Below, one piece after another: positions 16,007 through 51,875 of a DNA stretch of 64,000 nucleotides. A program made the position numbers and the translations under genes. Within the stretch, counting starts at the first letter, position 1. Every line of letters begins with the position of its first letter. Source of the DNA: Asaia prunellae JCM 25354 (GTDB lineage: Bacteria; Pseudomonadota; Alphaproteobacteria; Acetobacterales; Acetobacteraceae); assembly GCF_000613885.1 (NCBI RefSeq), contig NZ_BAJV01000010.1, positions 1 to 64,000 of the forward strand. The letters are read 5' to 3'. The notes under the pieces are model-generated. The model was given only the letters and a program-made list of their open reading frames with translations. It did no database searches and had not been told where the DNA came from.

Positions 16007-16047
16007 GTCTTGCATTTCGAAAGACAAGTTTTCGTGCTGAAAGATAT
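16007..16047. promoter_or_regulatory. Operator-like element upstream of MFS transporter, copy 2
   Basis: Begins GTCTT, contains TTTCGAAAG, then AGTTTTCGT and GAAAGATA. Aligned without gaps to 51836-51875, 31 of 40 positions agree. The outer half-sites TTTCGAAA and GAAAGATA are kept while the spacer edges differ. It lies 59 bp upstream of the transporter start, in a typical operator/promoter position. It is probably bound by the DeoR-type regulator encoded at 51884. Confidence 0.65.
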
Positions 16048-16158
16048 CGTCTGACCGATCTACGTCGAAACGAGCGTCCCATCAGTATTTTATCATGAGA
16101 GCATCTAATATCACTTTTATGTGTGATTTTGTATCAATGGTGTGTTTTGCCGTATCGC

Positions 16159-18687
16159 TCAGTGATCCGGGCGTCGCCTTGGCGGTGGCGGGCTCGCCAG
16201 CGCCGGGTTTTCCGGCCAGTCATGGCGGGGGTAGCGGCCGCGCATGTCGCGTCGCATATCTGGCCAGCCTGTCTGCCAGAACGTCGCGATATCGGCGGTG
16301 ATGGCTTGTGGTCTTCCTGCCGGTGAAAGCAGAGCGAATTGCAGCTTTACCTTGCCATGAGCGATGCGTGGCGTTTCTTTCAGACCATAGAAAGCCTGCG
16401 CTCGAGCGGAAATGGTCGGGATTGGCTCGCGATAATCGATTGAGGGCGCGGCACCCGGCAGGGCAAGACTTGTCGGTAATTCCTGATCAAGGCGTTTCAG
16501 CTGGGCATAATCGAGCCTCTGGCGCAGTAGCGACAGCAGATCGAGTGCCTGGATCTGCGAAATCCTGGTCATGCCGTCGATATAGGGCAGCAGCCAGTCT
16601 TCAAGCGTGGCTGCGAGGGTTTCGTCATCGGCCGCAGGCAGGGTCTCGTCGAGATGGAGGCGTGCTAGAGCAAGACGGGCGCGGAACTGCTGACAGGCTT
16701 CGCTCCAGTTAAGGCTGCCTGACAGATCGGCACGGATGCGCGAAAGTAGCAGGGACCGGATTTCTTCCGGATCGGCCGGGGCTGATCGATCGCGCAGCAC
16801 CAGCCCACCAAGGCGCAGTCTTCTGCGGGCAATAACGTTACCTGTTGCCGTGTCGAGGGCCGTTTCGACCTGTTCTTCCGTTCTTGCGAGCAGGGTCGGG
16901 GGCAAAGTGTCGAGGTCGAGCGGTGCGGCCAGACAGATTTCTGTAGCGGTGCGCGTATGCAGTGATGGCGCGACGAGCAGTTTCTCACGTGCCAGCGGGT
17001 CGATGGCGCTGAGCCTTGCCGAGCCGCCTCCAGCCAGACGATAGCGGCCCGTTTCACCCGAGGCCATGGCAACCCGATCAGGGAAACCTGCTGCAAGAAG
17101 GGCTGCGGTACAGTCCGGATCAGGAGGCAGGCGCTGCGACAGGCCAAGACGTCTTTGATAGCGCTGGCTCGACTGGCGTATGCGCGCAAGACTCGCCCTG
17201 TCGGCTGCAGGATGATGCTCGGCTCCTTCTATCAGGGCGAGGCGCGACTGGATATCGGCTTGGATCGCAGGCGCGCGCTGTCCTGGTATGGGGCGCGGCC
17301 GCAACGGGTCGCGTTCTTCGAGCAGGGCAGCAAGTGCGGCGGCAGTGGCTTTTTCAACGGGTGTGCGGGCTGCGCACATCATGGCAGCCAGACGCGGCTG
17401 AGCACCCAGACGAGCCATGGCAGTACCGAGTGGTGTGACCCTTCCTGCCTTGTCCAGTCCACCAAGGGTCTGCAATAGGGCGATGGCGGCCTGTCTTGCC
17501 CCTGAGGGCGGGGCATCGAGCAGAGGAAGAGCATCGGGTTGTGTACCCATGATTTCCTGCCATGAGGCAGTATCAAGACAATGCCCTGCCAGATCGCTAC
17601 TCAGGATTTCCGGCAGATCATGCTGGATCATGGCGCGCCCGGTGGCCTCGGTCCATAAACGCAGAGCGATGCCAGGTGCCTCGCGTCCCGCTCGGCCTGC
17701 GCGCTGTGTGGCCGTGGCGCGTGAGATTCTCACTGTTTCCAGTCGCGAAAGTCCTGAGCCGACATCGAGACGCGGTTCACGACGAAAGCCGCCATCAACA
17801 ACCAGACGGACGCCTGGTACCGTCAGTGAAGTTTCGGCGATGGAAGTTGCCAGTACGACCTTGCGTCTGTCGGACGGTTTGAGAGCCAGGTCCTGCTCTT
17901 TTGTATCCAGTTCGCCATAGAGCGGGAGAATCAATGCATCCAGCCCGGCAAGGGCTGCGGCACAACGTCTGATTTCGGCAACACCCGGAAGAAAGGCCAG
18001 AAGATCGCCTTCTTCTTCAGCCATCATTCCGCGGATGCTCCGGGCCACGAGCTCTGGCAATTCACGCAAGGCGGTGAGATCGCGCTTGGTATGACGAATA
18101 TCGAGAGGGAAGGCCCGGCCTTCACTTTCGACAAGGGCACCATCGAGCAGGGTCGTGAAAGCGCGTCCATCTGTTGTGGCCGACATGGCGACAAGGCGCA
18201 GTTCAGGCCTGAGAGTGCGTTGCAGATCGAGTGCAAAGGCCAGTGCCGTATCGAGATCGAGAGAGCGCTCATGCACTTCGTCAAACAGAATGGCGCCCAC
18301 GCCTTCAAGAAGCGGGTCAGTCAGCAGGCGACGCAACAAAAGCCCTTCCGTCACGACCTCGATACGGGTGGTGGCGCAGACGGCAGAGTCCGTGCGTGTG
18401 CGGTACCCGACTGTTCTACCGGTTTCTTCTCCCAGCAGAGACGCCATGCGATGGGCGGCACCTCGCACAGCCACGCGACGCGGCTCCACCACCAGCAGCC
18501 TGTCGTCTTTACGCCAGGGGGCTTGTAAAAGATGAAGCGGCACCAAAGTCGTCTTCCCTGCGCCGGGTGGAGCGACCAGCACCGCATTGCGGCCTGAAGC
18601 CAGTACGTCCTGTAATTCAGGCAGGGCGGCCGAGACAGGAAGAACGGGAAGCAAAATGAGATTGGCGGGTAATACTGGACCGGTCAT
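16159..18687 (-). CDS. hrpB: ATP-dependent helicase HrpB
   Basis: An 842-aa DEAH-box helicase. Motifs: Walker A APPGAGKTT (residues 39-47), VVEPRRVAVRGAAHRMA, DEAH-type box LFDEVHERSLD, motif III MSATTDG, and motif VI TQRAGRAGREAPG. The HrpB-specific C-terminal domain ends GRYPRHDWPENPA. The ATG at 18687 (MTGPVLPANL) is chosen because the helicase domain begins soon after and the upstream in-frame extension overlaps the divergent dsbD promoter. The length fits E. coli HrpB (about 809 aa). RNA or DNA remodelling; precise role in the cell unclear. Divergent from dsbD, 64 nt apart. Confidence 0.93.
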   Translation of the reverse strand: MTGPVLPANLILLPVLPVSAALPELQDVLASGRNAVLVAPPGAGKTTLVPLHLLQAPWRKDDRLLVVEPRRVAVRGAAHRMASLLGEETGRTVGYRTRTDSAVCATTRIEVVTEGLLLRRLLTDPLLEGVGAILFDEVHERSLDLDTALAFALDLQRTLRPELRLVAMSATTDGRAFTTLLDGALVESEGRAFPLDIRHTKRDLTALRELPELVARSIRGMMAEEEGDLLAFLPGVAEIRRCAAALAGLDALILPLYGELDTKEQDLALKPSDRRKVVLATSIAETSLTVPGVRLVVDGGFRREPRLDVGSGLSRLETVRISRATATQRAGRAGREAPGIALRLWTEATGRAMIQHDLPEILSSDLAGHCLDTASWQEIMGTQPDALPLLDAPPSGARQAAIALLQTLGGLDKAGRVTPLGTAMARLGAQPRLAAMMCAARTPVEKATAAALAALLEERDPLRPRPIPGQRAPAIQADIQSRLALIEGAEHHPAADRASLARIRQSSQRYQRRLGLSQRLPPDPDCTAALLAAGFPDRVAMASGETGRYRLAGGGSARLSAIDPLAREKLLVAPSLHTRTATEICLAAPLDLDTLPPTLLARTEEQVETALDTATGNVIARRRLRLGGLVLRDRSAPADPEEIRSLLLSRIRADLSGSLNWSEACQQFRARLALARLHLDETLPAADDETLAATLEDWLLPYIDGMTRISQIQALDLLSLLRQRLDYAQLKRLDQELPTSLALPGAAPSIDYREPIPTISARAQAFYGLKETPRIAHGKVKLQFALLSPAGRPQAITADIATFWQTGWPDMRRDMRGRYPRHDWPENPALASPPPPRRRPDH

Positions 18688-18751
18688 AATGACCTCTATG
18701 GCGCGTCCCTGGGGCGGTCGGCAATTCTCTTCTAACGATGCGATCGGTCTG

Positions 18752-20843
18752 ATGCTGCGTAAGCTGTTTTTTCTTGTTCTGCTCCTGTCTTCTTTTGGCC
18801 ATGTGCCTGTTTTCGCCGCCGAGAGCGATCCTGTTGTTTCCAGCCACGATACGGCAACGCTGGTCACTGATCGCGACAGTGTCGAGGCAGGAGCGACGCT
18901 TCATGTCGGGCTGCGTCTGCAACTCAAGCCCGGCTGGCATACCTACTGGCTCAATGCCGGTGATGCCGGTGAGCCGCCGACGCTCAAGGTAACCGCGAGT
19001 GGCGCCCTGACAGGACAAAGCGAGAGAATCGATTTTCCGACTCCTGTCCGTATCAGCGAAGGCGGCCTGATGTCCTACGCTTATACGGGCGATGTGCTGT
19101 TACCACAGGCGCTGAAGCTTGAAGGGCAGGGGGGAGCGGTCACGCTCAAGCTCACGCCGAATGGCTTGTCTGCGCGGCAACCTGCGTACCCGAGCAAGGC
19201 GATTTCGCGCTTGATCTGCCAGCGGGCAACGCCAAGGCAAACAGTTCTGCCCAGGCCCCGCTTTTTGTCCATGCAGCCCAGTCCAGCCCGATACCGTCGC
19301 CTTTTGCGGCGTCTCTTGCAGCGAATGGGCTACTCAGTCTGACGGGAAAGGGGCTCTCACCGGAGAGCGTCGAACGGGCGTGGTTCATGCCTTCCGAAAC
19401 CGGATTGATCGATCAGGTAGCGCCGCAGAAGCTGAATGTCAGCGAGGGTGAGTTGACGCTTGCCCTTAACTGGGTCGATGCCGCACACAAGCCCGCGAGT
19501 CTTGAAGGCGTTGTTGTGGTGCAGGATAAGGCGGGCCAGCAGACGGCGCTCTGGATCAGGACAGTACAAGCCACAGGTGCTGCTTCCGGGAGCTCGGCCA
19601 CGACACCGCCGGTGTCTGCGCCTTCCTCGCTCTGGCAGATGCTGCTTTTTGCGTTTCTGGGCGGGCTCATTCTCAATCTGATGCCATGCGTCTTTCCGGT
19701 TCTGGCCATGAAGGCCTTCTCTCTTGTTCGTCTGGGAGGGGGCAAGCGCCACGAGCAGATTACGAGCGCTCTGGCTTACACAACAGGGTGATGGGGAGTT
19801 TCGCTGCGCTGGGTGTGGCCATGATCTTGCTGCGCAGTGTCGGGTCTGCCGCTGGGTGGGGGTTCCAGTTCCAGTCCCCCATTTTCGTCATCAGCGTGGC
19901 CTGGCTACTGATCATGATGGCACTCAATCTTCTGGGTGTTTTTGAGTTCACGCTGGGTCGTATTGGCCAGGATGTTACGCCGCGTCATGGTGTGTGGGGC
20001 GATATGCTGACGGGTCTGCTGGCAGTGATCGTGGCCACACCCTGCACGGCTCCTTTCATGGGCGCTGCCATTGCTGCGGCCCTGAGTGGGCCGGCCTGGG
20101 CAGGACTCGTACTGTTTCTGGCCATGGGTTTTGGACTGGCATCTCCGTATATAGCGATTGCCACCATTCCATTCCTGGCTCGTCATATGCCAAAGCCAGG
20201 CGCCTGGATGGCGGTGCTTAAACAGGCCCTGGCTTTTCCTCTGCTTGGGACAGCGGTCTGGCTGTTCTGGGTTGCCTGCGTCCAGCGTGGTGCCATGATC
20301 CTGCCTGTAGGATTGGGGGGGGCTGTCGGGCTCGGTCTGGTGGCCTGGCTGTTCGGAACAACACAACGTCAGGCCATGATCAAGGGAGCAACGCCGGGCG
20401 TCATTATCGGGCGCATACTGGCTTTGCTTGTACTGGTCATCGCGGGAGCCAGTCTGGCACGGATCGATAATGGTGTCGCATCCGGTGGATTGGTGGAAAC
20501 AAAGGCAGAAGCCGGCAGTGTCTCCTATTCGCCAGAGCGTCTCGCCGGGCTGCGTGAAGAAGGTAAACCGGTCTTTGTGGATATGACGGCGGCCTGGTGC
20601 ATCACCTGTATGGTCAATGAACGCGTCGCACTGCAAACGGCACCTGTGCAGAAAGCCTTCAAAGCCCAGGGTGTCGTCTATATGAAGGGCGACTGGACCA
20701 ACCGGGATGAAACCATTAGTGCCTTCCTGCGCGAGCATGGCCGCGATGGCGTGCCGCTTTACGTTTATTATGCGCCTCACAAGGACGGGAAGATCCTGCC
20801 GCAGATCCTGACGGTTTCGGGCGTGCTCGATGCGATCAGATGA
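18752..20843 (+). CDS. DsbD/ScsB-like protein-disulfide reductase (two frameshifts)
   Basis: An inner-membrane protein that carries electrons from cytoplasmic thioredoxin to the periplasm. A signal peptide (MLRKLFFLVLLLSSFG) is followed by an N-terminal immunoglobulin-like periplasmic domain (LKPGWHTYWLNAGDAGEPP; then, after correction, WLVCAATCVPEQGDF with its CxxxC pair). The membrane domain has the two reactive Cys-Pro motifs, LMPCVFPVLAMKAF and TPCTAPFMG. A C-terminal thioredoxin-like domain has TAAWCITCMVNERV. Frameshifts, each one base short, lie near 19160-19162 and at the GGG run 19786-19788. The corrected length is 697 aa. Clients may be DsbC-like isomerases or copper-resistance proteins; none are nearby. 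Confidence 0.85.
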
Positions 20844-23789: not shown

Positions 23790-24860
23790 GGCGTGAAACT
23801 CCAATAGGCATCCGGGTAGTCAGGCATCATTGTCAGAGTAAGAGGCGCTCCCCAGCAGAGCGCGAAGTGCGACAGTGCCTCGCGCTCAGTTTCCAGCGCC
23901 CTTACAACGGCCAAAGAGGCGCGGAGTACGGGATTTCCGCCTGCCATTACACTACCTTTGTCGCGCAGGATCTGTCTCAAAGCAGAAAGCCCGCGCCCGC
24001 CGGGGCTGGAAAGTGCTTCATGCAAAGGTGCACGTCCTCTGGTGCGGACGACTTCCAGCAGACCCAGGGCCGTCGCTCCGAGCATTCTGGCTGCATCGGG
24101 TCATCGGCCAGGGCCGTTGCCAGAAAGGCGCCAAGTGCAGGGCGCTTGCGCAGGGGCACCCCCGCTGGGTCTATGAGAATGGCACCGCTCAGATTACGCA
24201 GACGGATCTCACGTGACAGAGCTACAAAACCATGGCGATTGGCCGCGAACCCGTCCATCTGGCGACGCTGGTCCGGAGAAGGGTCGTCCAGGTCAATGGC
24301 GGTCAGGGCCGGTGTCGGTGTGATGGTGGCGCGTAATCCGTTCGGCAGAGAGGCCTGTGGGGTGGAAAGCTCGTCGCATAAGGCTTCGAGAACGGTATCG
24401 AAAGCCTGGCTGACACGCTCGATACGAGGCCTTAGCGCCGCTGGAATCTGCGCCATGAGGCAGGATCGTCACAGCACAGGGCAAGATCCGGGTAACGTGC
24501 TGCAATTTCCTCAAGTGGCGTAGGACCACGCGAGACAAGTTGTGGGATATTGCCTTCGGGTGAATGGCCGGTAAGCGGTTTGAGGCGTAATCCTTTGCCG
24601 TTCTGTGCACTGCGCGTTACACGGGCGGCGACCAGAGCGCCCTCCTGATGTGTGCCGGTCAGAAAGCCGGTGCTATGATCAAAGAGTGTGACAAAAGCAC
24701 CACCAAGTGCCGGGGCGGCCTTTTGCACCCTGACCAGATGAATGTCGCCATAGCCATCGGGCATACCGGGGCGCCAGAGGCCGAAGTCGAGCAGATCATC
24801 ACCGTCGCAGACAGCAATACGCGCCTCGCCCGGTGACCAGGCGATACGGCACTCTTTCAT
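23786..24860 (-). CDS. Ribonuclease E/G family protein (two frameshifts)
   Basis: RNA-processing endonuclease family. Evidence is scattered over three frames: the N-terminal part ([37 protein letters not shown]) ends near 24432, the catalytic part ([11 protein letters not shown] and [17 protein letters not shown], which match the conserved Asp-containing RNase E/G motifs) follows, then [22 protein letters not shown]. Both breaks are one base short, near 24431-24443 and in the GGG run at 24098-24100. The corrected length is about 358 aa, shorter than E. coli RNase G (489 aa). It overlaps maf and yacG by 4 nt on each side. Confidence 0.82.
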
Positions 24861-25819: not shown

Positions 25820-25844
25820 GGGGTGAAAAGGGCCAGATCACCCC
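25820..25844 (-). terminator. Hairpin overlapping hisD stop
   Basis: GGGGTGA (25820-25826) and TCACCCC (25838-25844) form a 7-bp stem on the minus-strand transcript. The hisD stop codon lies within the first arm. AATAAATC follows, without a clear U-tract, so it may only attenuate or protect the transcript 3' end. Confidence 0.3.
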
Positions 25845-27144
25845 TGATTCCACCCCAATGCATCGAGTCGGGCCGAAAGGCTGAGCGCGTGGGCTCCAAG
25901 TCCTTCGGCCCGGGCAAGGGCGACCCCGGCAGGGCCAACCGCGCGCAAACCGTTTTCATCTGTGGCGATCGAGGTCGTCCGTTTGAGGAAGTCAAAAACT
26001 GACAGCCCCGATGCGAACCGCGCCGTGCGGCTGGTAGGCAGAACGTGGTTCGGCCCGCCAACATAATCGCCCACGGCTTCCGGACAGTTGCGCCCGAGGA
26101 ACATGGCCCCTGCGTGGCGAATCTTCGTCGCAAAGGTTTCCGGGTCGTCGAGCATTACTTCCAGATGTTCCGAGGCAAAACGATTGGCGATCCGCGCGGC
26201 TTCCTCCCAGTCACGTACAATCACGACTGCGCCATGATCGGCCCAGGATTTGCCCGCGATAGCGGCACGCGGCAGGGTCAGAAGCTCGTTTTCGAGCGCC
26301 TTGACCACAGTCCTAGCAAAGGCGGGATCATCCGTGATCAGTACGGCCTGTGCAAGCTCGTCATGCTCGGCCTGAGCCAGAAGATCAAGCGCGACAAAGC
26401 GTGGCTCATTGCGATTGTCAGCTACGACGACGACTTCGGATGGGCCTGCAATCGAGTCGATGCCGACATGGCCGAAGACCTGACGCTTGGCTTCGGCTAC
26501 ATAGGCATTGCCCGGCCCGACAATACGATCGACCGGCGGGATGCTTGCCGTGCCATAGGCGAGGGCGGCCACGGCCTGGGCACCACCGACACGATAGATT
26601 TCGTTCACGCCACAGACCCGTGCGGCCGCAAGAACCAGTGGGTTGAGGACGCCATCGGGGCAGGGCACGCACATGGCGATACGCTCGACACCTGCCACGC
26701 GCGCGGGCAGGGCGTTCATCAGTACGGACGAGGGATAGCCGCCTTGCCGCCCGGCACATAGAGTCCGACAGCATCAAGTGATGTCCAGCGCATACCAAGC
26801 GTCAGCCCGGCATCGTCAGTATAGGAAAGGTTGGAAGGCAGCTGTGCCCGGTGAAAGGCCTCGATACGTGTGGCGGCGAGGGTGAGCGCTTCCATGAGGT
26901 CCGCATCGACCCTGTCGGCTTCACGGGCAATCTCGGCTTCGGAAATACGAAGGGTGTCTGCTGTCAGATCCAGTCTGTCGAAACGCGATGTATAGTTACA
27001 AAGCGCGGTGTCGCCCTGGCTGCGTATGGCAGCAATAATGTCGCGTACGGGTGTACTGACACTGGTTTCGACCGCACTGCGATCGGCAAGCAGGCTGCCG
27101 AGGCGGGTTTCAAAATCATCGTCACTGCTCTGGAGCCATTTCAT
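25838..27144 (-). CDS. hisD: Histidinol dehydrogenase (frameshifted)
   Basis: Catalyses the last two oxidations of histidine synthesis, L-histidinol to L-histidine, with NAD and Zn. Seen: GLYVPGGKAA near residue 130; after the break, MNALPARVAGV, YRVGGAQAVAALAYGT, IVGPGNAYVAEAKR, SIAGPSEVVVVAD and AEHDELAQAVLITDD; then SGLSVFDFLKR. The frame breaks at about 26737-26741. One restored base gives GGKAAYPSSVLMNALPA, the normal family sequence, and a 435-aa protein. It overlaps the hisG stop by 4 nt. Histidine synthesis is central, so the break is probably an assembly error. Confidence 0.95.
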
Positions 27145-31892: not shown

Positions 31893-33301
31893 TCAGACCG
31901 GTTCTGCCTTGTGCAGATGGCAAAGCCCTTCGGGAGAAAGAATCTTGACGAGTGTCTCTTCCGGTACGAGCTTGCGCTCACGTACGATCTCGATCACGCC
32001 TCGCCCTGAGTGATGCGCCTCCAGAGCGATGGCAGTAGCGGTCTCGTAGCCGATATACGGGTTAAGCACTGTCACAAGCCCGATCGAGTGCGTCACGATG
32101 GCTTCCAGCTGGGCCTTGTTGGCGGTGATGCCACGAATGCAGCGCGATTCAAGGGTAAGGCAAGCTGCGTGAAGATGGGTCAGGCTCTTGAACAGGCTGT
32201 GAGCAATGATCGGTTCAAAGGCGTTGAGCTGCAGCTGACCTGCTTCGGCTGCCATGGTCACGGTAAGATCATTGCCGATTACCTCGAAAGCCACCTGATT
32301 GACGACTTCGGGAATGACGGGGTTGATCTTGCCCGGCATGATTGACGAGCCGGATTGCATTGGAGGCAGGTTGATCTCGTTCAGCCCGGCGCGTGGACCT
32401 GAGGAAAGCAGACGCAGGTCATTGCAGATTTTCGACAGTTTGACAGCAAAGCGTTTGAGAACGCCCGACATCTGAACAAAAGCACCGCAATCCTGTGTCG
32501 CCTCGATGAGATCGCTGGCGGTCAGGAGATGCAGATTCGTGATCTGGTTGAGATGTGCACAGACCGTATTGGCAAAATCAGGGTGGCTGGCAATCCGTGT
32601 GCCGATGGCTGTACCGCCCAGATTGATTTCCTTGATCAGAAGAATGGCCTCGTTGAGGCGCTTCTGATCCTCGTCAAGCATGACAGCATAGGTCTGGAAC
32701 TCCTGACCCAGAGTCATGGGGACGGCATCCTGCAGCTGGGTACGGCCCATTTTCAGGATGTCATGAAATTCCCGCGCTTGGCGACAAAGGCCTTTTGCAG
32801 CACGCTCATGGCATCTGTCAGATGGTTGACACCATGAATGGCTGCAATGCGCAGGGCGGTTGGATACACGTCATTGGTGCTCTGCCCCATATTGACGTGA
32901 TCAATGGGGTGGAGCGCAGTGTATTCGCCGCGTTGCCGACCCAGATGCTCAAGCGCGCGATTGGCGATTACCTCATTGGCATTCATGTTGGTCGAGGTAC
33001 CGGCGCCACCCTGAATGACATCCACGACGAACTGGTCGTGCAGTTGTCCGCTCCGTATATCTTCGCAGGCAGCGATGATGGCGCTTGCCTTTGTAGCGTC
33101 GAGAAGCCCGAGATCCCTATTGCTCAGAGCTGCGGCTTGCTTGATGGCAGCAAGCGCATTGATGAGCTCGGGGTAACCGCTGATCCTGCGTCCTGTAATG
33201 GGAAAATTCTCGACGGCACGCAGCGTGTGAATGCCGTAATAGACAGCGCTCGGGACTTCACGAGTGCCAAGAAGATCGTGCTCGGTTCTGCTAGAGACCA
33301 T
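31893..33301 (-). CDS. aspA: Aspartate ammonia-lyase (aspartase), frameshifted
   Basis: Converts L-aspartate to fumarate and ammonia. N-terminal part: EHDLLGTREVPSAVYYGIHT, QGGAGTSTNMNANEVIANRA and HPIDHVNMGQSTNDVYPTA. C-terminal part: MGRTQLQDAVPMTLGQEF, GGTAIGTRIASHPDF, and the aspartase/fumarase signature GSSIMPGKINPVIPE. The frame breaks at the CCC run 32771-32773. One restored base gives KRGEFHDILKMGRTQLQ, as expected, and a 469-aa enzyme. Aspartase is preferred over fumarase C by the N-terminal pattern. Upstream is a 560-nt region without a clear gene. Confidence 0.93.
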
Positions 33302-33866
33302 AATTCAAGGTGCTCCCTTTCTTTCGCCGTAGAGGAAGCTACTGAAAGGTTTGAGGCAAGACCGGTAAGCTCCATAGGTTATGTCTTTTCACTGTAGGAG
33401 CCATGTGTTCTTTGCAGATGCATTTCAGAAAAGTATATTTTGCGAAATGAAAAAAGACCCTGATCCCTGACAGCGCAGGTCTTTTTGCTACAAGTCGCAG
33501 AAGTGCTCTTCACATTCTTTTTTTGTGTTCTGCGCATGATTTCATGACTGTCGCGCTGCATGACTTAAATCGAGACAGGTCAGGAAGCCTGTCCCATGTG
33601 CAGGTCGGACCATACTGAGGTAATCAGATCTCCAGTCAGAGACGGGGCTGGAAACAGTACACTGAGTTCAGTCTGTATATTGCGGAAGGCCAGAGGCACT
33701 CCTCCGGCATTCGTGCCCTTTGCCAACCGAGAACAGGGCTGCTCGCATTCTGTTTCGGTATCGACCAGGTACTCTCTTCGCCTGTAGCAGCGCACAGTGC
33801 AACGCAGGTCCTCGCGACCAGGCTCGTGGTTATTGCTCGGCTGCTAAAGGGTAAGAGGAGTACCTT
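33302..33866. other. 565-nt stretch without a confident gene
   Basis: Holds the probable aspA promoter and leader (near 33302-33440), a terminator-like hairpin at 33450-33486, and one minus-strand open frame (33580-33795 and slightly upstream). That frame's Cys/Arg-rich translation begins RCYRRREYLVDTETECEQPC. It has no ribosome site and no recognised family. It could be a remnant or a missed small gene. Confidence 0.4.
33450..33486. terminator. Bidirectional terminator-like hairpin
   Basis: AAAAAGACC (33451-33459) pairs perfectly with GGTCTTTTT (33478-33486). The stem can extend by CTG/CAG with one bulge. Read in either direction the second arm ends in a T run, on the minus strand TCTTTTTTC, so it resembles a Rho-independent terminator working both ways. 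It may end the L,D-transpeptidase transcript about 380 nt downstream of that gene. Confidence 0.55.
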
Positions 33867-36892: not shown

Positions 36893-39800
36893 TCAGCTTT
36901 TCGAAGTAAATGGTTCTGCGAGTGGATTTGGCGGGGTGCGCCTGGGAAACAGGCGGTTCCACAGTCTTGTGCCAAAACGGCCGATGGCATCCATGTAAAG
37001 ATAGATGACCGGGGTCGTATAGAGTGTGAGCAGCTGGCTGATGAGCATGCCACCAACGATGGCGATGCCCAGGGGACGGCGCATTTCAGAACCATAACCA
37101 TGACCAACCATAAGCGGCACGGCGCCGAGTGCCGCCGCGAGTGTGGTCATGAGAATAGGCCTGAAGCGGGTCAGACACGCTTCGTAGATTGCCTCACGGG
37201 GCGTATGGCCCAGCTCTTTCTCGGCATAGAGCGCGAAATCGATCATCAGGATCGCGTTTTTCTTCACAATTCCGGTGAGTAGGATCATCCCGATCATCGC
37301 GATGAGGCTGAAGGATTCCCCTCCGATCCACAGACCGAGAATGGCCCCTATCCCGGCAGAAGGCAGGGTAGACAAAATGGTGAAGGGGTGGATCAGACTC
37401 TCGTAAAGCACGCCCAGAACAATATACATGGCAAAGAGCGCAGCCACGAAGGCCAGCAGCTCATTGACCAGCATGTCCCTGGTCTCGCCTGCAAGACCGG
37501 AAAACTCCCCTGTCAGACCAGGTGGTGCACCCATGTCCTGCAAGGTCTGTTCGATCAGTTTGCGCGCGTCTTCGTAGGTCTTGTCAGCAACCAGATCAAA
37601 ACTGACAGCGGTCGAGGTCATGCCCTGCTGATGGTCTATCTCCATCGGGGTCGGTTCCATGACCAGATCGGCTACGTTGATGAGCGGAATCATTGTTTCG
37701 ACCGAAGACGCAACAGCTGAACCGTTGGAGTTATTGCCTGTAATCTGGTTGGCAATGGCATTGCGCAGTGACGCCTCACTGAGCTGTGTGGCAGTCGAAG
37801 CCGAGCTGTCGCTCGTTGTTTTGACGCGGATCTGGTTGGAGCGTACAGCGCCTGCCGGTGTGCCTGAGGCGGTCGAGATCCAGGCACTGCGCAACTGTTC
37901 CGGGGATTCACGGTAGGCACGGGCGACTTCCATCACAACAGAATGGGTTGTGATATCGGTGTGAATACGTGAGGCCACGGTCTGGCCGTAGGCATCGTAC
38001 AATACATTCCCGACCAGCTGCGGTGTAACCAGATAGCGTGCCTCGGTGTCCCGGCGCAATTTGACATGTACCGAAGCACCGTGGCCTTCGACATTGGTCG
38101 TGACCGAAGTCATCATCTTGTCTTTGCGCAACCTCGCCGCGAGACGTTGTACCCAGAGCTTGAGTTCGACGGGGTCCTGATCGCGCAGCACATAGCGATA
38201 GGCTCCATTACGATGCTGGCCACCGCCACCATTGGGATCGCCGGCAGAAAAGAACGATGTGCGCAATCCCGGCATGTCACCGAGTTTCTTGCGAATGCTG
38301 TCGACAATCTGAAGATCGGTGCGTGTACGGGTATGTTTGTCCGACAACCTTGCGAAAAGCTGGCCGTCGCTGCTGCTGTTGTTCCAGCTTGTGACTGATA
38401 ATATGTCCGGGTCGGCTTTCATTACCTTGCCGACATAATGAATGCGCCTGGTGATTTCAGAAAACGACATCGTGTCGTCACCGCTGATCGATCCGCCAAC
38501 AAGAGAGATATCCTGTCCCGGAATGCCGGTTTTGGGCATGAGTACAATCGAGCCGACAAGTACGATAAAGCTGATCGGCAAGGTGAGCGCGGTCAGGATA
38601 TGGTGGCGCAGCGCAACACGCAGGGTGCGCCCGTAAATGGCAATGAGACCATCAAGCAGGAAATCAATCGTGCGCAGGACACGGTTGCGCAACCCCGGCC
38701 CGGTCGGCTCTTCATGTTCCACATCCAGCCAGTAAGCGCACATCATGGGGGTAAGGGTGAGGGACAGGACAAGCGAGATGAGCAGCGCCGACACGATGGT
38801 CATCGAGAATTCGTAGAAGATTGCGCCTACCTGTCCCGGAATGAACAGAAGGGGAATGAAGACCGCCACAAGCGAAGCGGTGATCGAAAGCACTGTGAAG
38901 CCTATCTCGGAGGAGCCTTTCAGGCTCGCACTCATGCGGTCCATACCGGCTTCCATGTGGCGGGCGATATTTTCCAGAACCACGATGGCGTCGTCGACTA
39001 CGAAACCCACCGAAATGGTGAGCGCCATGAGCGACATGATGTCGAGGGTGAAATGCTGCCATTTCATCACGGCCAGTGTGCCGATCAGCGCGATGGGCAC
39101 CGTGACGGCAGGAATGATGGTCGAGCGTAGGCGGCGCAGAAACACCAGAATGACACCGATCACGAGAATGATCGAGATGCCGAGTGTCAGCTGCGTATCG
39201 TCGAGTGAGGCGCGTATACTGGAGGAAAGATCAATGGCCGTATCCATCTCTACACCGGGTGGCAGAACCGCGCGCAGGGTAGCCATGCGCTCTTTCACGG
39301 CATCGACGATCTTGACCGTATTGGCTTTCGGCTGCCCGCGCACGATCAGGGTGATGGCCGGTTTGTTGTTGAAGTATCCAGCTTGGTACAGATCCTGAAC
39401 GCTGTCGTTCACCTCGGCGACAGAGGAGAGTTTGATGGGGTTGATGTTGTTGCGATACCCGATGATCAGGTCGCGATACTGAGCGGCATTCTCGGCCTGA
39501 TCGTTGGTCTCGAGCATGAGGCGCTGGCCGCCTGAATCGAGAAAGCCCTTGGGTGTGTTGGCATTGGCCGAGGCCAGGGCCTGACGTACGTCTTCAAAAC
39601 CGATGCCCCACTTGTACAATGCGTAGGGGTTCACATCCACGCGCACCGCAGGTGCTGACGAACCCACAGCCTGAACGTGACCTACGCCCTTGATCTGCGC
39701 CAGAAGCGGTTTGACCCTGATCTGGGCAAGGTCGAACAGCTTTGGCAGCGTCATGACGTCCGAGGTCAGGGACAGCAGATAGACCGGCTGTGAGGTCGGA

Positions 39801-40200
39801 TCATCTTTATAGGCATAGGGATCGCGATCGAGTGTGCCCTGGGGCAGGTCGGCCCGTGCTGCCCTGAGGGCGGCCTGAACATCGCGCAGAGCGCCATCGA
39901 TATTGCGGGATTCTACAAAATCGATGCGGATATAGGCAAAGCTGTTTTCACTGTCTGATTCGATCAGTTTCACCCCGGCAATCTGGCGAGATAGCGCTCC
40001 AGAGGCGTTGTGACCGAGCTGACCATCTGTTCGGGGCTTGCGCCAGGCTGCTCGATTTCAACATTGATTGTTGAAGAGCCGATATCAGGCAGGCTCGCCA
40101 CAGGCATCAGCGGATAGCAGATGGCGCCTGCTGCAAGGAGCGAAAGAGCGAGCAATATCGTCGCCACGGGACGCATGATGAAGAGACGACAGAAATTCAT
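36893..40200 (-). CDS. RND-family (HAE1/MdtB-MdtC-like) multidrug efflux transporter, frameshifted
   Basis: A 1102-aa inner-membrane proton/drug antiporter. The N-terminus is MNFCRLFIMRPVATILLAL, then LPDIGSSTINVEIEQPGASP and MVSSVTTPLERYLA. The frame breaks near 39980-39990; one restored base gives IAGVKLIESDSENSFAYIRID. The two 6-TM halves contain GFVVDDAIVVLENIARHME, with the proton-relay Asp pair, FIPLLFIPGQVGAIF, and GIVKKNAILMIDFAL with its conserved Lys. The C-terminus has RFRPILMTTLAAALGAVPLM. No periplasmic adaptor or TolC-like gene adjoins it, which is unusual. It lies between an SDR and an S9 peptidase on the same strand. Confidence 0.92.
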
Positions 40201-41121: not shown

Positions 41122-44100
41122 TTACACGCTGTGTCTTGTAGCACCAAATTGTCCGGCCATTTCGGCCAGATGCGTATGATGGGTCATGAACAGGATCTGC
41201 TGGTGCCGGGCAATGCTGTTCAGTGTTGCAAAACCAGCTTCTGCGCGGGCCTCATCAAATGTGATGAACAGGTCATCGGCAATGAATGGCAGGGTGAAAC
41301 CACGCATACGGGCCTGTTCAAGCGCTGCGAGACGCAGGCTGAGATAAAGCTGATCACGTGTGCCTTCACTCATGGCCGAGGCGCAAACCATTTTTTCGTT
41401 TTGCAACATGCCTGAAAGTTTCGGGGTCTTGCCTTCGTCATCAATGACGAGCTTCTGATATCGCCCGCAGGTAAGGGAGCTGAAGAGGCGCTCTGCCGCC
41501 CTGAGAAGAGGATTGCTGCTCTCCAGCCGCTGACGTTTGGCCACATGGGTGAGAACAAGTGTCTGGATACGGGCTTGCGCCCATTCTTCGGCGGCATGGG
41601 CCATTTCAGCCCGGCAGGATTCGATTTCGGCGGCCGCCTTGAGGGCGGCTTCGTCGTTTTCGATTTTGCGCAGGGATTCCCGGATTGCACCACTGCGAGA
41701 GAAAGCTGCGTTGCGCTGCTGCTCGAGCTCATTCTGTTCGCTGTCGAGTGCGTCGAGCCGGGTAGCAATCAGGTCAGGGTCGGTTTCTCTGGCCTGGGAT
41801 TGCAGCTGAGCCAGATCAAGCCCGTCCGACTGTTCGGAAATCCGGTGTTCGCGCTGCTTCCTGTTATCCTGGGCGCGATAATAGCGGCTTTCTTCTTTAA
41901 GAACCGGGCGGATCATTTCGATACTGGTCGTCTCAAGGCGCTGCAGGAAAGGCATGAATTCATCGCGTAGCCTTTCCAGAGCCGTGTCAGCGGTGGCGCA
42001 GGCTTCGGTTTTTTCCCTGATCTGGACGTCCTGACGGTCAGCGTGTTCCTGGTCCTGCCTTGAACTGAGCAGCGCTTCATATAAGGCTGATACTGCGCCA
42101 TGGGTGTTGTCAGAACAAGATCATTTTCCCGGTCGAGACTGACCATGAAGAGACGGAATTCTTCCTCAAGGGTAGCAATCTCAGTCCTGTATGCTGTCAG
42201 GGCTGCGCGTCGGTATGCAAGAGTATTGGCCTTTTGTCGCAGGTCAGTCAGTTTCTGCACCTCATCGAGGGACCAGACGGGGGTGTCCGGCAGGACTTCG
42301 TGCCAGCGTGTCTCCAGATTTTTTCGGTCCTGGGCAATAGCCTCTCCCTCGTACTGCCTAGCCTGCAAGGTGGCCCTGGCAATATCATGCTCCTTCTCGC
42401 GTTCCGAGAAACGGGCAGCCTCTTTCTCGCGATCGAGACTTTGCTTTCTGGCGTCAATCAGCGTGTCTGACAGCGTGTCATAAGGCGCCAGATCGGGCAG
42501 AAGCGCGCGTAAAGTCGACAGTATGGTCTTTCGGGTCCGGGTCGCGGCTTCATGCTCTGTCTTGAGGGTCTCAAAACGTGTGCGTGTCTCGAGGGCCTTC
42601 TGTCTCAATGCCAGCCAGCCCGGCAGATGATCCGGTGGCAGGAGGGGAAGGCCCCGCTCTGTGAGCACTTCCCGCCATTCGCGTTCAGCCTCATCATGCG
42701 CCTCAATCAGGGCGTCGAGCCGTGAAGCCTGCTGCTTGCGTTCCAGAATGCAGCGTTCGACAGCATGGTCAGTCTGGCTCAGTCTGGCCAGTATTTCGGC
42801 ATTATCAAAGCGGCGATCGGCAGACTGATCGGCTAGGAGGCGTGAGGCCAGATAGGCATCGCGTTTTTGCGTATCGTAGGGCGCTGTCATCAGAGCGTCG
42901 AAAAGCCCGTTCCGTTGGGCGCGCTCCTGATTGAGTGTGGCAAGCGAGACAATATCACGCTGTTCAATCTGGGCCTTTTCGAGCAGATGGCGCTCCCTCT
43001 CATCATCCAGCGTGCGTATTGCCTCTCTGAGCAAGGCAATGGTTTTTTCTCTCTCACGCCAGTTATCGCGTTGCGTTTCCAGAAAGCCGGGCTCGGGAAC
43101 GGCCATTGTATCCAGCATCTGCGGATCGTCTTGCCATGGCAGAAGGTTACGCAGAGACTGATCCATCTGCGTTCTGGTTTCACGCAGAGTCCGTTCGAGC
43201 GTGTTTATGGTGGTGTCGATATCACGAACCGCTGCCGCTTGCTCCAATGCGTTCTGTAACGGACGCAGGGCAGGAGGGATGTCCGCGCCCAGACTGGCTT
43301 CGGCCCGGGCCAGATTTTCCCGTGCGGCATTGTAGTTCCGACGCCAGTTTTCCTCACGCAGACCCAGTGCATCATACGACCTTGCCAGAGGGCGGAGCTG
43401 GGCAAGCAATTCTTCACCGGGAAGGTGAGACAGGATTTCTTCCGCCGTGCCGGTATAGCCTCCGGCCTGAAGCGCAGCTTCCATCCCGTTCAGTTGTGTT
43501 TCTTCCTCATGATCGGTCTGGCGATGGCCAAGTGCTTCGAATCTGGTTCTGAAGGCCCGGATTTCGGTCTCATGAGACAGAAGGTCGAGATCCGGCTGAT
43601 AGCCGGCACGGGTTTCAGTCAGACCATCAAGCTTTTGCTGAAGGTCGTTTCTTTTTTGCACCGCGTCAGTCCAGCGATGCAGAAGGTGATCAAACTGCTC
43701 GTGTTCCTGCGGAGTAAAAAGTGGTGCAGGGGCAGCCTGAAGAAAGGCGTTGAGCCCGTCGAGCTCTATCAACTCTGTCCGAAGGCGTTTCAGTCTTTCG
43801 AGACGGGCGCGTTCATGCCGCAGAGCCGTAATGGCCTCTTCCAGATCCTTTCGGCTGGCCTCGATCGCGCGGGCTTCATTATTCAGGGCGGTCCAGGTGT
43901 CGCGGGCTCGTTCTGCGGCGAGGAGGTCGGAGCGTGCAGTATCAAAAGCTTTTTTCAATTCGCCGAGCTTCGTGCCGCGGCCGCCTTTCTTCCAGATGGC
44001 ACCGGCTTTGGTATCGAGCGCATCAAGCACGCTTTGCACGTTTTCGAGCCCGAAACCTGCTGCCAGAAGCTGCTGGCCGAGATCGCCCTCAAAGCGTGCC

Positions 44101-44510
44101 ATGGCATCGCCACCGGCGCGCAGGCGCTGATGATCGAGGCTCCACATGCGTTCGAACGCTGCCCGATCCACGCTGCCCAGCCAGCTTATCAGAGCGTTTT
44201 CATCGAGCGGTGTGGTGTCGTCAGGTGCCAGTAGCGTCTGTGCACGGCCTCGCTTGCGAATGATCGCAAGCCGTGTGTTGTCCTGCTCAAGCGTGGCCCC
44301 CACGCGCAGCAGGGACGCGTCGAAAAGCCAGTCCTGCGATTTGAGATTGGGAAAGCCGAAAAGCAGGTCGCTTATGGCAGAAAGTGTTGTCGACTTGCCT
44401 GCTTCATTGGCGCCATACAAAACCTGAAAATCTGCAGGGCTGGCCGGGAAATCGTAATGCCGGTCAGCAAAATTGCCGTAGCGGATGAGGTCGAGACGGA
44501 CAATTCTCAC
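41122..44510 (-). CDS. YhaN/SbcC-like coiled-coil AAA ATPase (frameshifted)
   Basis: A 1129-aa SMC/Rad50-like ATPase, likely partner of the adjacent nuclease. The N-terminal ABC half has VRIVRLDLIRYGNFADRHYDF and Walker A YGANEAGKSTTLSAI. A long coiled coil occupies roughly residues 180-950 (many Glu/Arg/Lys/Leu repeats). The C-terminal half has SEGTRDQLYLSLRLAALEQ, the ABC signature, and Walker B PFIADDLFITFDEARA. The start is a GTG at 44510 within the stop of the nuclease gene (GTGA overlap). The frame breaks at about 42081-42092; one restored base gives LYEALLSSRQDQEHADRQD. It may act in recombination or break repair. Confidence 0.87.
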
Positions 44511-45775
44511 GGCGCATCTCCCATGCCGGAGAGACTGTCGCACAGAGCCTCGTTCAGCTCGGGGAGGATTGAGCCCCAGTCGTGCTGCCTGATGCGGGCC
44601 AGAAGGGAGTCCGGGGCAATATCGCCGAGATTGAGCGTGTTGAGAAACGGGTCGAGTTCATCGCCAAGCGATTTCAGAAGCGCCTCGTCACCGGCCGCGT
44701 CATGGATGAGACCGGAAAGAGCAAAAATCTCGTCTTCAGTTGGTCTGGTCAGGCTCTGGGTAACGAGAGGTGAGGTTTTGAGAACCAGCTTTTCGAGTTC
44801 GATTTCTCCACCACTCATTGCGGCCAGATGCTGGGCGGTTTCACGCAGGGCAGGACCCTGACGCCTCAGCGCGTCATGAAGCTGTGTTGTCCCTTCCACG
44901 ATCAGACGCACCACAGTGAGATGGCTTGCATGATCCCGGGCCATATCACGAAGAAAATCTCCCAGACGCTCTTCAAGAGACGCCATGCTCTCCAGCCCGG
45001 TGCAATCGAAATGGGCGACATGCCATCTCACGACATCGCAGGTGATGGGGGTAATGGACTCGATGCGGTGATCCGTCACCGTCACGAGCACAACACCCTT
45101 TTCACCTGTTTCGCGGATATGGCGGCCCTGCAGAACGCCCGGAAAGACGATCGGCGTGCCATCTGTCAGGATCATCCGTTCATGCACATGGCCAAGAGCC
45201 CAGTAATCATAGTTCTTGGCGCGAAGGGCTTCAGGGGTGCAGGGAGCATAGGTTTCGTGCTGGCCATGGCCGGACAGAGAGGTATGCAGTACACCGATAT
45301 TGAAATAGTCCTGAACGGATGTCGGATAGGCGGGCGTCATGTCATGGGGAATGTGCCTGTTCGCAAAACTCTGGCCATGCAGGGCCACGCCAAGATGATC
45401 GATCAGGAAACTTCCGGGGTTTGATGACGGGAACCGGTCGATACCCGCAGGCAGTGGCAGATCACGCGTCAGAACCGATGCGGCATCATGATTACCTTGT
45501 AGCAGGAAGACCCTGATGCCATGGGCGATCAGGCGACCAAGCGCGCTGGCCATGTAGTGGCCGGTACTGATCGTTTTCCAGCTGCCATCATAGAGATCGC
45601 CTGCAATAATAACGAACGCGACTTCATGCTCGATAGCGACGCGAACCATATTGTCGAGTGCACGACGCGATGCAGAGCGAATGCGGTCGATAGACAAATC
45701 GTCATGCCGCTCCAGCCCTTTGAGTGGGCTATCAAGATGAAGATCGGCCGCGTGCAGAAAGCGAAAGGAGCTCAT
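44507..45775 (-). CDS. YhaO/SbcD-like calcineurin-type DNA exonuclease
   Basis: A 422-aa metallophosphoesterase. The metal-binding motifs are LHAADLHLDSPL, IIAGDLYDG, LLQGNHDAAS, GVLHTSLSGHG and ALGHVHERM, in the order seen in SbcD/Mre11. The C-terminal part is a helical capping domain (residues 260-420). It is the first gene of a tight unit with the coiled-coil ATPase, overlapping by GTGA. The pair is analogous to SbcD-SbcC and YhaO-YhaN. Divergent from a cation/proton antiporter. Confidence 0.92.
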   Translation of the reverse strand: MSSFRFLHAADLHLDSPLKGLERHDDLSIDRIRSASRRALDNMVRVAIEHEVAFVIIAGDLYDGSWKTISTGHYMASALGRLIAHGIRVFLLQGNHDAASVLTRDLPLPAGIDRFPSSNPGSFLIDHLGVALHGQSFANRHIPHDMTPAYPTSVQDYFNIGVLHTSLSGHGQHETYAPCTPEALRAKNYDYWALGHVHERMILTDGTPIVFPGVLQGRHIRETGEKGVVLVTVTDHRIESITPITCDVVRWHVAHFDCTGLESMASLEERLGDFLRDMARDHASHLTVVRLIVEGTTQLHDALRRQGPALRETAQHLAAMSGGEIELEKLVLKTSPLVTQSLTRPTEDEIFALSGLIHDAAGDEALLKSLGDELDPFLNTLNLGDIAPDSLLARIRQHDWGSILPELNEALCDSLSGMGDAP

Positions 45776-48610: not shown

Positions 48611-48676
48611 GCATGGTTGTTCCGGCACTGGTCTCTCCCGCCTGCCTGCCCAGGGTGCAATGGCCGAAGTCCGGTA

Positions 48677-49896
48677 TCAGCGGGCTGCCGGGCGCATATC
48701 CGGACCGTTATACTGACCACCGCTCATCGGGCGATTGACGGGAGGAGAAACCAGTGTGTCTGGCCAGGCGGGTTCATTGGCAGCACCCGGCACGATGGCG
48801 GTACGTCCCCGTGGGAGTGATTGCGGAAGTTCTTCGCGCAGGCGTTTCAGCATGCGTTCGCGCAGATCACAGCAGAGATTCCACATGCCATTGGCATCGC
48901 TGGCGCCAGCGATGAGGCGGATCGAGATAACCTGGGCATTGCTGTCTGCGATCTGACAGCCGACAGAACTCATATCATGGTCCCAGTTCGGGCAAGCTTT
49001 GAGCTCCTCATGGAAGAGGCGACGCACGTCATCCACAGGCGTCTGGTAGTCGAGCCAGAGAAAGACAGAGCCGATGAGCGAAGGGGAACTATGTGTCCAG
49101 TTCTGGAACGGGTTCTCGAGGAAATAGGCAATCGGCACAATATAGCGTCTGCGATCCCAGGTACGCAGCACGACATAGGTGGCGTTGATTTCTTCCACAT
49201 AGGCCCAGTCGCCATTGAGGATCAGCATATCTTCCATACGGATGGGCTGGGTGATGGCGATCTGGATACCGGCAATCAGATTCGACAGTGCAGGCCTGGC
49301 GGAAAGACCGACTACAAGGGAGGCAGCACCTGCGGAAGCGAATAAGGAGACGCCATACTGGCGGACGGACTCAAAGACCATCAGCGCTGCTCCTACAGTG
49401 ATGACACCACAGGTGATTTCAATCAGGCGGCGCAGAATACGGATCTGGGTCTGATGAGCGCGTACAGTAATATCATCGACCTGGGCACGATTGGCGATAC
49501 GGTCTAGATATTTATCCGTGCCGAAACGGAATGCCTTGATAAGGCCAAATCCGATCGTGATGATAAATGCAAACGCGAAGAAATGCGCCAGAAACTGGAT
49601 GGTGGTCGGCGCGAAGCCGGTTGTGGCTGGCAGGGCTGCGCTGGCAGCCACGATCATCAGCAGCAGTCGGACATGGTTCTGCAGACGGCCTATGGTCTCG
49701 TGAATGAAGCAATGCGCCGTAATCCAGGGAGACGAGGCAGAGCTTCTGTAATCAGGCGACTGAAAAGCAGCGCAAACAGGGCGGCAGCGCAGAGAAGCAG
49801 GGTCGAGGCGAGTGAAGGCGGCAGCCAGTCGAACCAGACGAGAATTCTCGACATGGAGTGTACATAGTCTTGCTTGATCACAGGCTCTCCTGACAT
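48677..49896 (-). CDS. MscS-family small-conductance mechanosensitive channel (frameshifted)
   Basis: A 406-aa osmotic-release channel. The N-terminal part has TM1 (STLLLCAAALFALLFSRLI). The frame breaks near 49704-49710, and one restored base leads to IHETIGRLQNHVRLLLMIVA. TM segments follow near GFAPTTIQFLAHFFAFAFII and ITCGVITVGAALMVFESV. The pore helix and conserved MscS stretch are GVSLFASAGAASLVVGLSAR. The beta domain has IQIAITQPIRMEDMLILNGDWAYVEEI and RRYIVPIAYFLENPFQNW. Starts at ATG 49896 or 49854. It lies downstream of the SBF-type transporter on the same strand (about 120 nt). Confidence 0.9.
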
Positions 49897-50013
49897 CTGA
49901 TGGGGAGAGCGTCAGGGTATCATATCATCGTGCTGTCTCTGACGCTCCGCTTCGTGGTGTTAACCACTCACCTGTCAGGCGTTTCCCCTAAAAGAGATGT
50001 AAGGAAAGAGGCT

Positions 50014-50976: not shown

Positions 50977-51121
50977 GGGGAGTGGTTTCCTCCGCCCGGG
51001 GGGACTTTGGCAAGGAGCTGTTTCAAACGTGATGTCAGAGTTCGGACGCAAAAGACAGATCTGCAATCCCTGAAGGTCTTTCCGCGCTAGCGTCGTACAG
51101 GACTTTCAGTCAGGAGGTGTC

Positions 51122-51739
51122 ATGAGTCGGAAGGATGCGGAAATGGATGCCAGACGCATAACACTGGGAAAAAAAGAGGTCCTGTCAGATCATTGGGGAA
51201 CGCTTTCACGTTACAGTTTTGAGTATAGTCGAAGGGACGGCACGCTTCAGCATCTGACACGCGAGGTTTATGATCGCGGCGATGGTGCGGCAATTCTGCT
51301 GTATAACAAGACGCAGAACACGGTCATTCTGACGCGGCAAATGCGGTTCCCCGTTTTTCTCAGGGATGGCCAGGGTGATCTGATCGAATGCTGTGCCGGC
51401 ATGCTGGACGGTGAAGATCCGGAAGTGGCGATCAGACGCGAAGCAGAGGAAGAAACAGGCATCGCTGTCAAAGATATCGAGGAGGTTGCCGCGGTTTATA
51501 TGAGCCCTGGTGCGGTGACGGAACGTCTGCATCTCTTCATCGGTGCCTATACGGGTGCCATGCGCATTGGCGCTGGAGGCGGCCTGGCTCAGGAAGGTGA
51601 GGAAATCACCGTGCTCGAACTGCCTTTTCCGGAAGCCATGAGCATGATTCCTGATGGTCGCATTGCTGATGCCAAGACGATCATTCTGCTGCAACAGGTC
51701 GCCCTGAAAGGGCTCTGTACATTTTTACCTTCCGTGTAA
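51122..51739 (+). CDS. nudK: NUDIX hydrolase, NudK-type (GDP-mannose pyrophosphatase-like)
   Basis: A 205-aa NUDIX enzyme. The NUDIX box is visible at about residues 93-115 (GMLDGEDPEVAIRREAEE then ETGI), matching GX5EX7REUXEEXGU. The N-terminus (ITLGKKEVLSDHWGTLSRYSFEY) and AILLYNKTQNTVILTRQMRFP resemble NudK, which hydrolyses GDP-mannose. The C-terminal EGEEITVLELPF is also typical. The start has AGGAGG upstream. A hairpin terminator lies at 51776. The gene symbol is by resemblance only. Confidence 0.85.
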   Translation: MSRKDAEMDARRITLGKKEVLSDHWGTLSRYSFEYSRRDGTLQHLTREVYDRGDGAAILLYNKTQNTVILTRQMRFPVFLRDGQGDLIECCAGMLDGEDPEVAIRREAEEETGIAVKDIEEVAAVYMSPGAVTERLHLFIGAYTGAMRIGAGGGLAQEGEEITVLELPFPEAMSMIPDGRIADAKTIILLQQVALKGLCTFLPSV

Positions 51740-51775
51740 GCGGCTGGCCCCTGACGCCGGAGACGGCACCGGAAA

Positions 51776-51806
51776 CAGGTCTCACAACACAATGGTGTGA
51801 GACCTG
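51776..51806 (+). terminator. Hairpin after NUDIX gene
   Basis: CAGGTCTCACA (51776-51786) and TGTGAGACCTG (51796-51806) form a perfect 11-bp stem with a 9-nt loop, 37 nt after the stop codon. No U-tract follows. It separates the NUDIX gene from the DeoR cluster. Confidence 0.55.
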
Positions 51807-51835
51807 ACTGATGAAGCTTACAGAAAACTGAAAAT

Positions 51836-51875
51836 GTCTTATCTTTCGAAAGTAAGGTTTTCGTTTCGAAAGATA
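51836..51875. promoter_or_regulatory. Operator-like perfect 12-bp inverted repeat upstream of deoR-type gene, copy 1
   Basis: TATCTTTCGAAA (51840-51851) is perfectly mirrored by TTTCGAAAGATA (51864-51875) across a 12-nt spacer. Each arm itself contains the palindrome TTCGAA. It ends 8 nt before the DeoR start, so bound repressor would block this operon (autoregulation). It is repeated with 31 of 40 identities at 16007-16046 upstream of the MFS transporter. Confidence 0.7.

Follow-up and report, generated by a model that had tools for sequence, protein, structure and literature searches.

A putative DeoR operator shared by a galactitol/tagatose cassette and a detached sugar transporter gene in Asaia

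The stretch of DNA analysed here (the window) comprises 64,000 nucleotides from Asaia prunellae JCM 25354 (NCBI RefSeq assembly GCF_000613885.1, contig NZ_BAJV01000010.1, positions 1 to 64,000). On its plus strand, a gene for a DeoR-family regulator (deoR, 51884–52693, 269 amino acids as read) is followed by genes for a probable tagatose kinase (TagK, 52707–53698), a GatZ/KbaZ-like protein (53698–54942) and a polyol dehydrogenase of the short-chain dehydrogenase/reductase family (SDR, 54942–55754). Well apart from this cassette, on the minus strand, lies a gene for a sugar porter of the major facilitator superfamily (MFS, 14515–15948, 477 amino acids). Both deoR and the MFS gene are preceded by a copy of a 40-bp element, located at 51836–51875 (plus strand, with the core CGAAA-N7-TTTCGT-N3-GAAAG at 51847–51872) and at 16007–16046 (plus strand, core at 16018–16043), respectively. 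As judged from the sequence, both elements are very probably operators of an autoregulated DeoR, encoded at 51884, which would control the galactitol/tagatose cassette together with the detached MFS porter.

On direct comparison within the window, the two elements were found to be identical at 31 of 40 bases, the same count as had been given in the original prediction, which described them as one operator shared by two genes of a split regulon. The deoR open reading frame (ORF) starts 8 bases past the end of the first copy. The second copy is situated upstream of the MFS ORF, with 58 bases between the two; the original prediction had placed it 59 bp before the MFS start.

Nine Asaia genomes were searched for the genes and the element, including that of the window (G000, contig C29). 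A close DeoR was identified in eight of them, i.e. the window's own and seven others at 76–89% identity, and a close MFS porter in the same eight (the window's own and seven at 83–93% identity). The named relatives that possess the window's DeoR are A. siamensis, Asaia sp. W19, A. bogorensis, A. krungthepensis, A. lannensis and A. platycodi. In the alignment, the helix-turn-helix of DeoR is near-invariant within Asaia. The element was present upstream of both deoR and the MFS gene in all eight genomes that have both genes. The core is exact in seven of the eight deoR sites and carries a single mismatch in the remaining one; among the eight MFS sites it is exact in five, with one mismatch in G005 and two each in G004 and G008. 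The ninth genome, G001 (88% complete), has neither a close DeoR nor a close MFS porter, and no core match at 0–1 mismatches was detected in it. A weight matrix was also constructed from all 16 Asaia sites, with self-scores of 25–57 and with one row (the G008 MFS site) in the wrong register. Six MFS homologues (55–69% identity) from genomes without DeoR (at E≤1e–25) lack the element, their best upstream scores being –6.3 or lower. In a regulon of two loci, the site should stand before both units across species and should be gone where the regulator is gone; the former was observed in the eight genomes, and the latter in G001 and for these six homologues.

With its outer parts included, the conserved palindrome of the Asaia sites reads CTTnC-N4-CGAAA-N7-TTTCG-N4-GnAAG, i.e. 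it consists of four short half-sites, around the conserved core given above. The original prediction had described a perfect 12-bp inverted repeat before deoR, and such a repeat is indeed present, since 51840–51851 is the exact reverse complement of 51864–51875 (12 of 12 positions). It is, however, confined to the deoR copy of the window's genome and differs from the conserved symmetry, its centre lying at 51857.5 and that of the conserved palindrome at 51855, or 2.5 bp away. In the register of the repeat, the matching positions of the window's MFS copy pair at 6 of 12, the other seven Asaia deoR sites at 5–6 and the eight MFS sites at 4–7; in view of this poor pairing, the perfect repeat was discarded as the functional symmetry. 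In the same register, the deoR site of G016, a genome from another genus, pairs at 9 of 12, and its left arm is letter-for-letter that of the window's genome.

The specificity of the core was determined in the nine Asaia genomes, with the reversed pattern as a control; both strands were counted, because the site is nearly palindromic. At 0–1 mismatch, 23 matches were obtained, of which 21 are at the deoR and MFS loci and cover 15 of the 16 sites. The two others sit within open frames, one (G000:C37:108685) in an ORF of 723 amino acids and one (G007:C1:86150) where each of the two strands has an open frame, of 162 and 191 codons. When up to two mismatches were allowed, there were 60 matches, 32 at the two loci and 28 elsewhere, compared with 23 for the reversed control, i.e. 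no excess indicative of further regulon members. The exact core was also sought in 299 Acetobacteraceae genomes, a sample that excludes G006 and G008 and in which the control pattern matched once. It occurred at 11 places in seven genomes, all of them before deoR or this MFS gene (ten in six Asaia genomes and one before deoR in G016). The outcome that the original prediction had named as speaking against it, a motif present at many unrelated sites, was thus not what was found: 21 of 23 and 11 of 11 matches, respectively, are at the two genes. Weight matrices gave a similar picture. With a matrix built on deoR sites from the seven other Asaia genomes, and hence with no MFS site in the training set, the deoR site of the window scored 37.9 and the MFS site ranked second at 34.0, followed by the next independent place at 11.2. 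Reciprocally, a matrix derived from the seven other MFS sites scored the MFS site of the window at 50.4, its deoR site at 31.2 and the next place at 14.2.

The product of the MFS gene is a member of the MFS sugar porter family, matching PF00083 at 326.1 bits and TIGR00879 at 321.9 bits, the cut-off of the latter being 237.8. By sequence, the closest solved structure is that of GlcP (4lds), and the near ones are those of GlcP, a glucose porter, and of plant STP and xylose porters. The surroundings of the gene were compared over 17 kb per genome (minimum ORF length 150 amino acids, E≤1e–20). In G004 and in G008, the latter a genome rated 9% contaminated, the MFS gene is found among other neighbours, none of the other listed ORFs matching the window, and yet the element is kept. 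Because the gene has different neighbours in these two genomes, a separation of 35 kb is no requirement; of the proposed link between genes across 35 kb, it is the shared site at both loci that stands. Upstream scores did not exceed –3.9 for fourteen more distant Asaia MFS paralogues or for four MFS genes from G016 and G033. The proposal of a split regulon is therefore supported by a site that is present in every Asaia genome with both genes, is specific, and is retained in other MFS neighbourhoods.

Related cassettes were also observed outside Asaia. DeoR homologues at E≤1e–25 were found in nine of the 299 family genomes, i.e. in six Asaia genomes and in G016, G033 and G255. The last three all carry genes for a tagatose kinase and GatZ, and G033 and G255 carry an SDR gene as well. 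In G016 (L103, G016:C8:50000-66000), deoR-tagK-gatZ occupy the corresponding position, flanked by a NUDIX and an AmiA-like gene; no SDR gene was found at that cassette and no close MFS orthologue (best 50%) in that genome. The exact core precedes deoR in G016, with a score of 25.0 against the all-site Asaia matrix. In G033, the two blocks precede deoR with an 8-base gap between them (score 0.9), and in G255 there is a degenerate site in which the exact blocks were not found (score 1.9). The sites in G033 and G255 rest on position and partial letters, since these scores are not separable from that upstream of a DeoR-family paralogue at locus L037 (1.5). A GntR-type gene near a two-mismatch site in G016 was judged unrelated from the adjoining sequence.

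A sugar ABC transporter is encoded between deoR and tagK in G255 and divergently to deoR in G033. In Paracoccus denitrificans PD1222 (L142), ABC genes, a sugar kinase gene and gatZ stand in a row, followed by a gene for a LacI-family regulator; in Aureimonas sp. AU20 (L143), the row consists of genes for a LacI-family regulator, a kinase and GatZ, and genes for an SDR and for a substrate-binding protein are nearby. A transporter thus often accompanies this cassette, and the window's genome has none within it. The ABC transporters found with the cassette in G033, G255 and P. denitrificans support the notion that a transporter belongs to the regulon. The Asaia cassette has in common with the TagK-GatZ cassettes of other Alphaproteobacteria a probable tagatose kinase adjoining a GatZ-like protein, and with those of G033 and G255 a homologous DeoR (there with a degenerate site) and the SDR. 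It differs in its transporter, which is of the ABC type and within the operon in G255 and P. denitrificans, and of the same type but divergent beside deoR in G033, whereas in Asaia it is a detached MFS porter. It also differs from the cassettes of P. denitrificans and Aureimonas in its regulator, a DeoR protein in place of the LacI-family protein encoded beside them.

The DeoR protein of the window contains an N-terminal helix-turn-helix domain (PF08220, 49.1 bits, cut-off 21) and a C-terminal DeoRC sugar-sensing domain (PF00455, 48.4 bits, cut-off 31.8). Against the NCBIfam equivalogs of GlpR, AgaR and SrlR, it scores far below the cut-offs (71.6 versus 331 at best, 68.5 versus 260 for AgaR). 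Its last ~35 residues are unlike those of the aligned orthologues, probably as a result of a frame break. TagK, a member of the PfkB family, is matched by NF049991 in two frames (303.7 and 150.3 bits), each below the cut-off of 420 because the open frame is broken near 53330; the intact A. siamensis orthologue scores 462.5 bits. The open frame of the GatZ/KbaZ-like protein is broken near 54500, and the similarity to its unbroken A. siamensis counterpart extends to 54942. This protein matches PF08013 at 359.2 bits (cut-off 26.7) and, in the broken frame, TIGR02810 at 368.3 versus a cut-off of 568.8, the value in G016 being 569.7. It is a probable tagatose-6-phosphate 4-epimerase, and PMC11907403 gives evidence from E. 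coli that GatZ and KbaZ are fructose-6-phosphate/tagatose-6-phosphate C4 epimerases. The SDR is of the SmoS/L-iditol 2-dehydrogenase type, its NF005472 score of 416.1 bits exceeding the cut-off of 338. Its best matches in the PDB are the sorbitol dehydrogenases 6pei (which we take to be SmoS of Sinorhizobium meliloti), 4e6p and 1k2w. According to PMC10433430, S. meliloti SmoS is an NAD-dependent dehydrogenase used in growth on galactitol and on sorbitol. Given the similarity of the SDR to sorbitol dehydrogenases, the findings on SmoS and the evidence on GatZ/KbaZ, the most likely route is galactitol to tagatose to tagatose-6-phosphate to fructose-6-phosphate.

In A. siamensis, open frames exist for TagK, GatZ and the full deoR; in the window, none of the three runs through. 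Nine window proteins, one of which is probably spurious (an antisense ORF), were flagged as changing frame where A. siamensis has one open frame, within the regions 18554–20840, 23795–24860, 25841–27144, 31896–33334, 36896–40200, 41125–44543, 48680–49881 and 52707–53698. Decay of the cassette was not favoured as the cause, and error-prone assembly is considered likelier, because the changes are scattered across the window in nine proteins. The deoR gene of G006 (A. platycodi) is likewise in two pieces. Between the SDR and AmiA-like genes of A. siamensis, on the opposite strand, there is an ORF of 883 amino acids (L107:7105-9756), which was not found at that place in any of the five remaining named loci; its start resembles that of ORFs at L003:4621-7317 and L004:15425-16702. 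A hairpin-like palindrome with a CACA..TGTG core is located between the NUDIX gene and deoR (51778–51804), at the same place in eight aligned Asaia genomes, and paired changes were noted by eye in A. siamensis. This palindrome could represent a terminator or a further protein-binding site; a terminator scan reported none there.

In five Asaia genomes, a second sugar MFS gene follows the SDR gene. These are W19, A. krungthepensis, A. bogorensis and A. lannensis (L004:12230-13753, L005:12229-13740, L006:12233-13756 and L007:12138-13688) as well as G002, which was judged from coordinates. The second porter is 37% identical to the detached one in the four named strains, and no operator of its own was found upstream in any of the five. 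It is not at the cassette in the window, A. siamensis or A. platycodi, where its best match elsewhere is a paralogue at 60–61% identity; that paralogue has counterparts at 58–60% in the other six Asaia genomes.

In all eight Asaia genomes, deoR is preceded by a –35-like hexamer, CTGACA or ATGACA (CTTACA in the window), which a spacer of 17 or 18 separates from a –10-like TACAAA (TATCTT in the window). The hexamers were first chosen by eye; in each of the eight, the –10-like one falls inside the left arm of the putative operator. The sites, together with the gene families and gene order, suggest a scheme in which DeoR binding, repression, effector and substrate are predictions. The DeoR encoded at 51884 would bind the four-half-site palindrome at both loci. 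At its own promoter, the site spans the presumed –10, the transcription start and the stretch to the ribosome-binding site, so that binding would block transcription of deoR-tagK-gatZ-SDR and lead to repression and autoregulation. At the MFS gene, the same site, some 60–70 bp before the start codon in the window's genome, would allow the transporter to be repressed in parallel. The effector known from other DeoR-family repressors is a sugar phosphate, and a pathway intermediate such as tagatose-6-phosphate may release the repressor here. The MFS porter would import a polyol (galactitol, perhaps sorbitol or L-iditol) or a ketohexose, the SDR would oxidise galactitol to tagatose, TagK would phosphorylate tagatose, and the GatZ-like enzyme would epimerise tagatose-6-phosphate to fructose-6-phosphate.

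Other explanations of the paired elements must, of course, be considered. A chance resemblance of two AT-rich intergenic stretches was examined with order-2 Markov windows at a threshold of at least 31/40: no direct pair was obtained in five such windows, and no inverted pair in the one that was scanned for these. The real window, in turn, contains two direct pairs at this level, the second (35377/44003) being as good as that of the elements, and one inverted pair (12229/12232), which overlaps itself. Taken alone, the similarity is therefore borderline and only moderately unusual, and the argument that two such elements in 64 kb are unlikely by chance does not stand on it. The argument does hold once conservation and specificity are added: the elements of both genes are conserved in eight of eight genomes, each of the reciprocal matrices finds the other site, and the motif is specific family-wide. 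Chance was discarded on the grounds of conservation, and its probability is considered negligible. Alternatively, both sites might be bound by another regulator, e.g. a DeoR-family paralogue, with the DeoR at 51884 merely one of its targets. Each Asaia genome encodes two to four further DeoR-family paralogues (25–32% identity), binding of this DeoR to the sites is a prediction from sequence, and the upstream region at L037 (G000:C32:110577-114032), in the window's own genome, has the highest score of the 21 paralogue upstreams. That score is nevertheless only 1.5, and the other 20 are –2.3 or lower, as compared with the self-scores of the Asaia sites. Moreover, G001 retains two paralogues in the absence of the close DeoR and of any 0–1 mismatch site, and the site is found before this DeoR in three other genera, although it is degenerate in two of them. 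Control by a paralogue is thus improbable.

It is also conceivable that the MFS site is a genuine DeoR site and that the porter imports a sugar other than galactitol or tagatose, under a broader logic, for instance one in which several pathways have a substrate in common. This explanation agrees with the DeoR regulon proposed here and differs only on the substrate. The glucose, STP and xylose porters among the closest structures are compatible with it, as is the second MFS at the cassette of five Asaia; the lack of excess targets and the absence of that second porter from the cassette in the window's genome, A. siamensis and A. platycodi argue against it, and we regard it as unlikely, if by no means far-fetched. 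Several observations weigh against the proposed regulon itself. In addition to the L037 score, the deoR-trained matrix is less sharp elsewhere (MFS site 26.7 versus 10.5 in A. siamensis and 22.0 versus 10.6 in G002), the MFS cores of G004, G005 and G008 carry mismatches, and the deoR sites of G033 and G255 score low with the Asaia matrix. A consensus scanner reported no sigma-70 site at the deoR promoter, and the MFS promoter was not placed, the one weak match upstream of the site comparing with 0.4 expected by chance. The substrate is deduced from neighbour genes, and the second cassette MFS of five Asaia, which is without a site of its own, could be the main importer instead.

With regard to known systems, the Asaia regulator resembles the GlpR/AgaR/SrlR-type repressors in its HTH_DeoR and DeoRC domains and differs from them in its equivalog scores. 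Those DeoR-family repressors have the architecture of local, autoregulatory sugar repressors, which the Asaia regulator would share. In S. meliloti, Kohlmeier and colleagues (2019) reportedly described galactitol/tagatose catabolism by SmoS and a pSymB operon for tagatose catabolism. As far as the available text of PMC10433430 extends, S. meliloti and Asaia share a SmoS-type dehydrogenase and pathway parts at separate places, and the smo locus encodes an ABC transporter as well as a regulator of the DeoR type (smoC); a GatZ-like C4 epimerase of S. meliloti is mentioned in the available text of PMC11907403. From these excerpts, the S. meliloti dehydrogenase is apart from the tagatose operon, whereas in Asaia the dehydrogenase is within the cassette and it is the transporter (MFS) that is detached. 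No description of an operator was found for the S. meliloti system in those excerpts.

Regulation of this kind, in which a local repressor also controls a detached transporter, is ordinary, and for Asaia it is a well-supported prediction; among the matches listed in a literature search, no title or abstract opening concerned a tagatose regulon under DeoR in this genus. Apart from the detached MFS, no sugar porter was found at the cassette or associated with the operator in A. siamensis, A. platycodi or the genome of the window. Tentatively, and with somewhat less than even confidence, a capture of the operator may be envisaged, in which an unrelated MFS symporter gene elsewhere acquired the operator of the repressor, replaced a cassette-linked ABC transporter and kept the operator in a different neighbourhood, with the regulon underlying the use of dulcitol (galactitol). 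According to PMC6022440, Asaia produces acid from dulcitol and Acetobacter and Gluconobacter do not, a trait that separates the genus from the other two, and A. bogorensis and A. siamensis are named as producers. A. siamensis is thus a dulcitol acid producer with no second MFS at its cassette. The link between regulon and trait is put forward as a hypothesis only, because periplasmic oxidation could also explain the trait. The regulon bears on how Asaia, a symbiont of flowers and mosquitoes, may import and use galactitol, and it provides a probable pathway for a sugar porter that annotation alone leaves generic. It also represents an evolutionary case in which an operator stays with a transporter gene in a different neighbourhood.

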